DNA of 64,000 nt. It comes from Prochlorococcus marinus str. MIT 9312. GTDB taxonomy: Bacteria; Cyanobacteriota; Cyanobacteriia; PCC-6307; Cyanobiaceae. Where the stretch lies: assembly GCF_000012645.1 (NCBI RefSeq), contig NC_007577.1, positions 620,001 through 684,000 of the forward strand. Reading direction: 5' to 3'. Below, piece by piece: positions 32,279 to 35,029 of the stretch. Numbering within the stretch: position 1 is the stretch's first letter; every line of letters begins with the position of its first letter. The translations under genes and the position numbers were made by a program. The notes below the pieces were generated by a model. That model worked only from the letters and a program-made list of their open reading frames with translations, was not told where the DNA came from and ran no database searches.

Positions 32279-32578
32279 ATGACTATAGGAGGAGCTAATG
32301 TTTGGACTAATTTTTCTTACGGTTATCGTAATGAGTCCCCAAGTGGTTGGTTGCTTAGCCCAGACCGCAGCAGATTAATTTTGTTTACAAGGAATAAAAA
32401 ATCTCCAAGAAATAGTATGAGAATTTTTGCTCATACATATTATGCAAATGATCTAGGTGAGCCAATGGCAATTAAATCATCAACTCAAATGTATTTGGAT
32501 AATGCTTGGGATAAATGGCATGACCTTCAATTAGAAGGTTGGACTTTTGAAGAACTTGAATTACCTGAATCAGTATGA
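32279..32578 (+). CDS. DUF1651-like protein, paralogue A
   Basis: 99 aa. Features of the cyanobacterial DUF1651 family: SPSGWLLSPDRSRLILF near residues 19-35, YYANDLGEPMAIK, and DNAWDKWHDLQLEGW. Paralogous to the gene at 34739, sharing MTxGxANVxTNF, the GWL segment, YANxLGEP and a Trp-rich C-terminus. Its stop overlaps the next ATG (ATGA). Function unknown; the LexA-like promoter suggests damage-linked expression (inference). Confidence 0.7.
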   Translation: MTIGGANVWTNFSYGYRNESPSGWLLSPDRSRLILFTRNKKSPRNSMRIFAHTYYANDLGEPMAIKSSTQMYLDNAWDKWHDLQLEGWTFEELELPESV

Positions 32579-32881: not shown

Positions 32882-32995
32882 TTATTTGGTTTTTATTTTT
32901 TTCTTAATTCTTAGAAAACCGTATGTTGCAAAGCCAACCAAAAACATATCTAAGTAAATATGCCAAGTAGGAAAAATCTGATGTACTAATTCCAT
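32882..32995 (-). CDS. Tiny membrane protein following the ligase-like gene
   Basis: 37 aa from ATG at 32995. MELVHQIFPTWHIYLD leads into a hydrophobic segment (MFLVGFATYGFL) and a Lys-rich tail. Its ATG overlaps the stop of the ligase-like gene (TAATG), so it is the coupled third gene of 33951-32882. The layout resembles a second tiny gene at 36903. Function unknown. Confidence 0.55.
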   Translation of the reverse strand: MELVHQIFPTWHIYLDMFLVGFATYGFLRIKKKIKTK

Positions 32996-33744
32996 TAACT
33001 TTTTATTGCAACTTGCCAATAAGGATAATCTAAATTTGATTTTTCTCTAATTAATTGTAATTTTCTAGAATTTATCTTTACTACTATTCCATCTGTTGGA
33101 TATTCCCTAAAAAGTTTCCCTTCTATCCACTGTTTTCTGAATACTTGAACTTGGCTCGTAAAGTTGCATGAAATATCCTGAGGGATCGTGAAGCCAAGCT
33201 CGGAAAGACTCTTTTTGGATTCATATTGGTTAAGTGTTGAATTAAGTATTTGAAATGCGCAGAAGCTAAGTCTTTCAGGAAATCCTTCTTTTGCTCTGAG
33301 ATATCCTGAAGCCATTCTTTGGGAGATATTTGGAGTTTGGTTAGATGCGTATAGTTCGCCTCTAACTTGAAGAACTCCTCGCAAAGGAAGATGATTGGGA
33401 ATGTCTTGAACTTTTATAAGTTTAGTAGTGACGTCAGTCCCCTTTCTTGAAATTGCTTTCTCCAAGATTCCATCCCTATATTGCAAAGCAACAGCACAAC
33501 CATCAATTTTAGGCTCAATTAATAATCTCGTATCTGCTAATAATCCTTCCAAAAATCTATCTATTGAATCCTTCTCTAATGAAGGTAAAACTAACTTACT
33601 TCTTTTCTTAAAGTAATCACAATTAGGATTTGTTCTTAATAAATTCTTTTCAAGTTGGTCGAACTGCTTATCAGAAATTAAAGCATTACCATTTCTGTAA
33701 TTATCGTCATACCATTCAATTCGTTCTTCGAAATAAGTCTTCAT
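32995..33744 (-). CDS. Stand-alone NAD-dependent DNA ligase adenylation domain
   Basis: 249 aa. Contains a short Ia-like NAD-binding region (WYDDNYRNGNALISDKQFDQL), the nucleotidyl-lysine motif EPKIDGCAVALQYRDG near residues 78-93, RGELYA near 129, LSFCAFQI, DGIVVKI and a final PYWQVAIK. All belong to the adenylation domain of LigA. The OB fold, zinc finger, helix-hairpin-helix and BRCT domains of LigA (about 670 aa) are absent, and the frame ends cleanly with a coupled downstream gene. It may nick-seal, adenylate another partner, or be a remnant that kept its reading frame. Confidence 0.85.
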   Translation of the reverse strand: MKTYFEERIEWYDDNYRNGNALISDKQFDQLEKNLLRTNPNCDYFKKRSKLVLPSLEKDSIDRFLEGLLADTRLLIEPKIDGCAVALQYRDGILEKAISRKGTDVTTKLIKVQDIPNHLPLRGVLQVRGELYASNQTPNISQRMASGYLRAKEGFPERLSFCAFQILNSTLNQYESKKSLSELGFTIPQDISCNFTSQVQVFRKQWIEGKLFREYPTDGIVVKINSRKLQLIREKSNLDYPYWQVAIKS

Positions 33745-33951
33745 TTAATACGATTTCTTAAGTTTTGGGCTAGGTATCGAATTTGGTTTATCTATAATCC
33801 ATTTATCTCTATCTTCATATTTAACAGTCCATAAAAGAAATGAAGAAATTTGTTTTAAAGATATACCAACCAAATACCTTGTTTTTGGACTTATTGATAT
33901 AAATCCAAATAATGATATTAATAAAAATAGTTTGAACACACCCTTAATCAT
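33745..33951 (-). CDS. Small membrane protein upstream of the ligase-like gene
   Basis: 68 aa: MIKGVFKLFLLISLFGFISI, a signal-anchor, then SPKTRYLVGISLKQISS and a charged tail ending KLKKSY. Its stop directly abuts the ligase-like ATG. Probable operon partner; no family recognised. Confidence 0.55.
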   Translation of the reverse strand: MIKGVFKLFLLISLFGFISISPKTRYLVGISLKQISSFLLWTVKYEDRDKWIIDKPNSIPSPKLKKSY

Positions 33952-34738: not shown

Positions 34739-35029
34739 ATGACAACTGGAGTTGCTAATGTTCGGACTAATTTTTATCCTAGCAGCCTTATTGACCCCCC
34801 AACTGGCTGGTTGTTTAACCAAAAAAGTGATTTATTGATTTTTTTTGAGAGTTATAAGAAATCTGAATCTAATAACTTAAAAGTTTATACTCACCTTTTC
34901 TATGCAAATGAATTAGGTGAACCTGCCCAACTGAAAAATTCAAGACTTCATTCTATTCAGGGTGCTTATGAAACATGGAATGAATTAATTTTAGGGGACT
35001 GGCAAATTGTTACTAATAAATTCCAATAA
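34739..35029 (+). CDS. DUF1651-like protein, paralogue B
   Basis: 96 aa. PPTGWLFNQKSDLLIFFE near residues 20-37, YANELGEPAQLK, and AYETWNELILGDWQ correspond position by position to paralogue A at 32279. Function unknown. Followed after two bases by a Cys-containing small gene, so the second operon carries different cargo from the first. Confidence 0.7.
   Translation: MTTGVANVRTNFYPSSLIDPPTGWLFNQKSDLLIFFESYKKSESNNLKVYTHLFYANELGEPAQLKNSRLHSIQGAYETWNELILGDWQIVTNKFQ

Follow-up and report, generated by a model that had tools for sequence, protein, structure and literature searches.

The DNA analysed here, referred to as the window, is a stretch of 64,000 nucleotides corresponding to bases 620001-684000 of the 1,709,204-base single-contig genome of Prochlorococcus marinus str. 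MIT 9312. It contains a gene for a 249-aa protein related to the NAD+-dependent DNA ligases (LigA), set between two genes for small hydrophobic proteins (Table 1), whose membrane label rests on hydrophobic stretches judged by eye. The 68-aa ORF runs right up to the ATG of the ligase gene and the 37-aa ORF overlaps the ligase stop by TAATG, in agreement with the tight coupling of both small genes described in the sequence-only reading that was followed up in this work. On the opposite strand, the three-gene set is enclosed by a DUF1651 protein and a look-alike, a possible trace of insertion or duplication, and the only tRNA in the window lies 32 kb from the 249-aa gene.

Table 1. Coordinates of the genes discussed in the text, given as positions of the window unless another source is named
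Feature	Position	Strand	Basis
DUF1651 protein flanking the three-gene set	32279..32578	+	PF07864, E 2e-10
37-aa hydrophobic small protein, TAATG overlap with ligase stop, conserved at the locus	32882..32995	-	ORF list, relatives' loci
Stand-alone NAD-ligase Ia + nucleotidyltransferase protein, 249 aa	32995..33744	-	Pfam/PHROG profiles, alignment, model
68-aa hydrophobic small protein, abuts ligase start, weakly constrained	33745..33951	-	ORF list, relatives' loci
Second DUF1651-like protein, other side of the three-gene set	34739..35029	+	by eye
Pmar-Lig (L006), 442 aa, ligA position	L189:8205-9533 = own genome 1,663,204-1,664,532		PDB, phrog_114 matches

The 249-aa ORF is the Ia plus nucleotidyltransferase (NTase) module of an NAD+-dependent DNA ligase. 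In profile searches it matched PF01653 with 69.4 bits against a cut-off of 27 (E 4.4e-19) and two PHROG families of NAD-dependent ligases (E 6.6e-30 and 5.4e-21), and it scored 71.8 bits with the full-length LigA model TIGR00575 (cut-off 444.45), of which only positions 94-301 were matched. Motifs I (EPKIDG, including Lys79), III (RGELY(A)/RGE) and IV (DGIVVK(I)), i.e., the three segments noticed initially, are all present, and alignment with host LigA and T5-type subunits extended that list to domain Ia-like residues (Y16 R17, D25, F28 D29) and motif V (WQVAIK, Lys248). The ORF stops one residue after Lys248, and none of the OB, zinc, HhH or BRCT parts, which had already been read as missing, follows motif V. 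An AlphaFold2 model built on a 28-sequence alignment (mean pLDDT 89.4, pTM 0.81) had its best structural match in the NAD-bound LigA of M. tuberculosis (7k72_A; Z 23.9, rmsd 2.9, 244/249 residues aligned), a match that spans model residues 1-249 and includes both domain Ia and the NTase domain; 1tae, 8jyd and E. coli LigA-NAD came next (Z 23.1-23.4), followed at a lower level by the heterodimeric ligase of phage PR1 (Z 16.9) and by the ATP ligase Pmar-Lig (6rar, Z 14.4). The Pfam match over cut-off, the LigA-NAD-like predicted fold and the lack of C-terminal domains thus sustain the initial description of a stand-alone NAD-ligase adenylation domain.

Compared to LigA (PF01653; 7k72, 5tt5, 1tae), the protein displays the same Ia plus NTase fold over its whole length with motifs I, III, IV and V, but, besides the C-terminal domains, it lacks the insert that LigA carries around NPRN. 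The adenylation domain itself is already known, as is its placing on a separate polypeptide in the T5-type heterodimeric phage ligases; T5 subunit A (dnlj1, 323 aa) aligns with 99% of the 249-aa protein at 26.5% identity, and the PR1 ligase (structures 9hu3, 9i5i) is of this kind as well. The T5 and Akh-2 subunits extend past motif V, T5 by ~79 residues that we take to form an OB fold, whereas the 249-aa protein ends there; moreover, T5 has a second ligase gene close to subunit A, whereas no B subunit was found with the 249-aa protein in the TIGR00575 search.

Conservation of the protein and of its small neighbours

For the family survey, 251 genomes were used, 16 from genus g1, which we take to be high-light (HL) Prochlorococcus, and 235 from other genera, among which neighbouring ones such as g56 are presumably low-light (LL) Prochlorococcus. 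An orthologue of the 249-aa protein was found in 15/16 genus genomes (70-100% identity); in G167 (20 contigs, 99% complete) the matches listed comprised only an impaired paralogue and no main copy. This paralogue (47-49% identity) occurs in at least 13 of the 16 genomes, G000, G017 and G136 being without it among the matches listed. Within the named loci, which are the best 80 of 444 relatives, the length was 249 aa in 80/80, Asp81 was kept in 79/80, and a motif script passed 77/80, the other three carrying DGLV (two) or PKING (one). Loss of the catalytic lysine in related strains had been named beforehand as evidence against a functional protein: Lys79 is kept in 80/80 of these loci, and it is lost in one of nine fixed copies belonging to other lineages (LL-type copy L036). 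Residues Y16, D25, K79, D81, G82, E130, D218 and K248 were invariant in 31/31 aligned proteins (the window protein, 4 of the 80 named HL loci and 26 of the 33 viral proteins presented below), and Arg150, which aligns with a LigA arginine, was kept in 16/16 HL main copies and 12/12 copies from integrative elements; the HL orthologue of G270 carries K248N. The dN/dS of the gene was 0.166 for 91 pairs of 14 loci and 0.152 for 119 usable pairs drawn from 16 sequences, those of G136 and G270 among them, and the gene is under purifying selection.

Other copies have followed a different course. Nine LL-type fixed copies (225-235 aa) are missing the Ia residues Y16 R17 and show D81I in 9/9, E130V/I/K in 9/9, D218N/S in 8/9 and loss of K248 in 8/9; the dN/dS of the 228-aa type was 0.31 (7 sequences), compared with 0.13 in 6 sequences of a neighbouring gene. 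HL paralogue 2 has lost D29, R150, D218 and K248 in 4/4, with a dN/dS of 0.58 that derives from four close sequences and little data. Since the LL-type copies and HL paralogue 2 have lost motif residues, relatives of this kind can persist without ligase chemistry. Seven fixed LL-type stubs (L028, L032, L033, L035, L037, L053, L057), still conserved after the loss of motif residues, are possible pseudo-enzymes. In PMC6102989, 'DNA ligase' appears twice among the LLI-specific genes, with lengths of 603 and 687 nt; judging from these lengths, both are probably LL-type stub copies. One may ask whether the 249-aa protein itself has a non-catalytic or regulatory role, as a binder of NAD+ or DNA ends whose catalytic residues are on their way out. 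The persistence of the 228-aa copies and of the impaired paralogue speaks for such a role, but the near-complete retention of Lys79 and Asp81 by the HL main copy, under stronger constraint than either, makes it unlikely.

The small neighbours were inspected in 15 genus loci (L008-L022), where the 37-aa downstream ORF was present in 14/15 (with 33 aa in one and a GTG start in another) and an upstream ORF of 67-68 aa adjoining the ATG in 12/15; the upstream ORF is shortened in L016 and has a premature stop in L020, and L022 (G136) has neither small ORF. Across the best 80 of 444 relatives, the downstream gene looks intact in 78/80, 74 by script and 4 by eye (the six script misses comprise four that differ near the start only and two that are frameshifted), and its dN/dS was 0.12 (33 codons). 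The upstream ORF was called by script at 55 aa or more, abutting the ATG, in 66/80 of the same loci; eight of the 14 script misses are still at least 59 aa, with another start codon or end point, five of the 79 assessable loci have the gene interrupted, and one contig ends too soon. The dN/dS of this gene was 0.52 over its last 42 codons.

The orthologue of G136 lies 170 bases from a tRNA-Ser(TGA), beside genes matching the window's 0.9-5.6 kb and not its 33-kb position, and the 11-12 kb surrounding the orthologues of G136 and G270 gave no homologue of either small protein (best E 0.096); therefore, the three-gene set is a property of one locus. An integrase-like fragment, judged by eye, was observed near the NTase locus of the genus genome G202 (L011:12-533, - strand). 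Conservation of the set thus holds at its own locus, as seen with the 37-aa ORF, and fails at the G136 and G270 loci. The sequence-only reading had further suggested a membrane-associated, three-gene adenylating system, for which one could cite the tight coupling, the constraint on the downstream gene and an upstream gene open over at least 59 aa in 74/79 assessable loci (best 80 of 444), some with another start or spacing. We regard this system as decidedly improbable, given the interrupted and weakly constrained upstream gene, the missing small genes around two orthologues, and the different neighbours of the phage and element relatives.

LigA and Pmar-Lig in high-light Prochlorococcus

LigA is usually presented as the ligase that all bacteria have and need, and it has been pursued as an antibacterial target; non-orthologous ligase displacement is known elsewhere. 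In the window's own genome, PF01653 and TIGR00575 returned only the 249-aa ORF, plus TIGR00575 positions 503-556 in another frame of 652 aa, and no second LigA half that could act as a split-ligase partner was found by PF03120 or TIGR00575. PF03120 (ligase OB) had no match in 16/16 genus genomes, the own one included, and was matched in 214/235 other family genomes; considering all genomes of the family with at least 90% completeness, it was present in 151/168, and the 17 without it include all 16 genus genomes. Likewise, none of 61 genus genomes, of which 22 have a completeness of 90% or more, exceeded the TIGR00575 cut-off. Each LigA search was accompanied by 14 control genomes, positive in at least 11.

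A PF01068 ligase in a frame of 444-452 aa, with 77-81 bits, was detected in 16/16 genus genomes and 0/235 others, where a match, if there was one, mostly lay in a larger frame. The genus-wide assignment of this frame to Pmar-Lig relies on frame size and score, sequences having been compared for the own copy vs that of G136 (81% identity). The own copy matches the Pmar-Lig entries 6rau, 6ras and 6rar at 939-958 bits, as well as ATP ligases of phages (phrog_114, E 3.3e-88), among them those of Bacillus and Geobacillus phages at 31-33% identity. It shares the NTase superfamily fold with the 249-aa protein encoded in the same genome, but it is a complete three-domain phage-type ATP ligase, unlike the 249-aa NTase module. 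Synteny at the ligA position was inspected in two HL and two LigA-bearing genomes: in G161 and G065, LigA (690 and 686 aa) has a 140-aa gene on one side and, on the other, a gene of 201-204 aa and then one of 933 aa (valS-like by eye), and in G000 and G136 Pmar-Lig is flanked by the same neighbours. In the comparison with the own stretch at the ligA position, LigA and two other small genes were without a match. A third ATP-ligase-like protein of 364 aa is encoded in the own genome (L007:1228-2322, - strand; phrog_114 E 3.3e-20); a frame of this type was not seen in the other 15 genus genomes among the matches listed, G167 having a different frame of 463 aa.

Our results indicate that in HL Prochlorococcus LigA has very probably been displaced by the phage-type ATP ligase Pmar-Lig, a conclusion that we hold with more confidence than the family assignment given in the next section, and replication in these organisms is most likely served by Pmar-Lig. 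The idea that the 249-aa protein itself replaces LigA as the replicative nick sealer draws on its being the sole NAD-ligase domain found in the window's genome; it is scarcely credible for a protein lacking the DNA-clamping domains, with no main copy among the matches listed for G167, and with a Pmar-Lig-sized ATP ligase in all 16 genus genomes that occupies the ligA position in the two inspected.

A structural paper on Pmar-Lig assumes that an NAD-dependent ligase is still present (PMC6698739), which does not fit these HL genomes, and an NAD-ligase VFam figures in PMC11357015 among those unique to some LL strains, in agreement with the HL absence. According to PMC7824862, most subgroup 2.1 jumbo phages are without a known ligase and have the DNA-binding domain of ATP ligases on its own, by which the host ligase might be recruited; cyanophage P-SSM2 is called a subgroup 2.1 phage in the same source, an assignment that would suit a host with Pmar-Lig.

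Phage and element relatives and the origin of the protein

A scan of viral contigs with the single protein gave no match, and a scan with alignment A1 gave 39 encoding loci. Stand-alone ORFs of 239-289 aa constitute 33/39 of these viral relatives, the six longer ones being a T5-like protein of 326 aa, four of 671-684 aa and one of 1236 aa. Clustering of the 33 proteins gave 32 groups at 95% identity, 26 groups at 90% and 19 groups at 70%. Random truncation had been raised as a possible explanation of such homologues; these 33 viral relatives and the aligned element copies all stop soon after motif V, which argues against it. In the 1236-aa ORF (L183:4060-7770) the NAD-ligase domain comes after an unrelated N-terminal region, possibly as a fusion.

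The viral contigs carrying these relatives are fragments. A gene of ~250 aa resembling a 'minor tail protein' was found in 32/33 loci, directly upstream of the NTase in 30 (L151-L179, L181), with a 70-aa ORF call between the two genes in L178; it is downstream in L148 and 4.9 kb away on the other strand in L150, and L149, whose contig starts at the NTase gene, has no such neighbour. All four tested members of the neighbour cluster matched phrog_1924 'minor tail protein'; this label is possibly mistaken, or the protein could act as a partner of the NTase. A single-sequence search, run without a positive control, found no such neighbour in the window's own genome. A VRR-NUC nuclease and a VapE-type helicase (one member of each profile-tested) lie near the viral NTase in 23/33 and 21/33 loci, respectively, and a helicase-like ORF named by eye in 24/33. 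On these 33 fragmentary records, PF01068 ATP ligases were found in 0/33, and the search for a LigA remainder with TIGR00575 gave nothing past model position 304 and nothing over the cut-off.

In the integrative elements of picocyanobacteria that carry the stub, possibly tycheposon-like, the copy in L056 overlaps a tyrosine recombinase (phrog_1, E 2e-15) by 4 nt, and L034 has the same arrangement with a recombinase judged by eye. A tRNA-Pro lies 37 bases from the copy in L054; for L061, a recombinase (phrog_1, E 8.1e-16) and a tRNA-Pro are found at distances of 4 and 5 kb, and L063 is accompanied by VapE together with a small, weakly scoring HTH-like ORF. As for cultured phages, 594 records matched the window protein, the best 40 of 594 being all NAD-ligase-like and mostly T5-type, and the viral homologues either had T5-type subunits among their best 25 of 69 matches or no match at all. 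Matches to a viral homologue came from 36 plasmid records, none over 80% of the length, 9 of the best 10 being annotated as LigA. The best 50 Foldseek matches among viral models were mostly larger proteins named ligases, with many unnamed; a 193-aa protein of S-CAM8 is among the Foldseek viral matches. Altogether, the 249-aa protein most probably belongs to a stand-alone NAD-ligase NTase family of phages and integrative elements.

A comparison with ligase-like enzymes of RNA repair or defence had also been suggested; PADLOC defence models gave 0 families at E 0.1 for the ligase stubs examined. This bears on another explanation, that of an NAD+-consuming defence or anti-defence enzyme, in which Lys-AMP would be hydrolysed or passed to a protein or metabolite, leading to NAD+ depletion or NMN production. 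Such an enzyme would be in keeping with the retained domain Ia, the NAD-bound LigA as closest fold, the absent DNA-binding domain, and carriage by phages and islands; we nevertheless deem it improbable in view of the PADLOC result, the DNA replication and recombination genes among the tested phage neighbours, and the conserved Arg150 of HL main and element copies.

In a tree of 41 rows, which omits seven near-identical HL rows, the stand-alone copies and T5-type subunits were placed apart from three host LigAs (support 100/100); of the eight loci L038-L045 only L043 had given a usable ORF for a host LigA. HL main copy and HL paralogue were sisters (100/99), and the HL copies fell into one group (96/97) with the fixed LL-type copies and two element copies. 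Finer branching is uncertain, because long branches meet (LigA with T5, and some LL-type rows) and only three LigAs are included. Further, LigA and stand-alone copies occur together in related genomes such as G161 and G052. On the basis of the separation from three LigAs in the tree and of synteny in the genomes inspected, the candidate explanation of a host-LigA relic was rejected. That the protein might be what was left of the host LigA after loss of its C-terminal domains was prompted by a genome without detectable LigA that yet keeps one PF01653 ORF, but this is now hardly conceivable, as the host LigA position is elsewhere in the two relatives inspected (and filled by Pmar-Lig in two HL genomes), the three LigAs are separated in the tree, both types of gene coexist in G161 and G052, and the dN/dS is 0.15-0.17. 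The original remark that clean gene borders speak against a simple relic is upheld by the protein forming a family of its own, its constant length in the named loci, and this constraint.

Proposed activity and significance

From the sequence features and the predicted fold, we propose, at about even chances, that the 249-aa protein performs NAD+-driven adenylation of Lys79 in the service of DNA end or nick sealing in trans. Domain Ia would hold the NMN half of NAD+, AMP would be taken onto Lys79 with release of NMN, and it would then be handed to the 5'-phosphate of a DNA end or nick presented by another protein; a separate DNA-presenting partner is proposed because the 249-aa protein has no DNA-clamping domain. 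In phages, the neighbouring phrog_1924-like protein or the machinery of replication and recombination may take this part, and in integrative elements the substrate may be an intermediate of the tyrosine recombinase reaction. HL Prochlorococcus may have captured the gene from phages or elements and kept it as an accessory end-processing enzyme. Truncated T4 RNA ligase 2 (residues 1-249), a man-made truncation from the ATP/RNA ligase branch, is an NTase without partner domain that self-adenylates and seals pre-adenylated ends. The adjacency of the phrog_1924-like gene may be structural rather than functional, given its tail-protein annotation; no partner with a DNA-binding part was identified in the HL genome, and the protein may be dispensable, since G167 is without a main copy among the matches listed. 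The main alternatives to sealing in trans are a non-catalytic role, with the LL-type copies as precedent, and NAD+ turnover.

In the literature on ligases, Prochlorococcus and mobile elements, in which subscription journals were thinly covered, we found neither a statement of the absence of LigA from HL Prochlorococcus nor a description of an OB-less stand-alone family or its phage context; a prior description of the family or of the HL LigA displacement is possible. A joint reading, quite unlikely to be right in all its parts, would see HL Prochlorococcus as a free-living LigA-less clade that exchanged its replicative ligase, at the same site, for one of the phage ATP type and that keeps a phage-derived, NAD+-only 'adenylate loader', the family being an undescribed two-component class of phage nucleic-acid ligases, with the NTase charged by NAD+ and the phrog_1924-like neighbour presenting DNA. 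A very abundant photosynthetic lineage seems to have put a phage-type ATP ligase in the place of LigA, one gene for the other. In a family of phages and mobile elements, the NAD+-dependent ligase is cut down to its charging module, raising the question of what is the target of adenylation once no DNA-binding domain remains.
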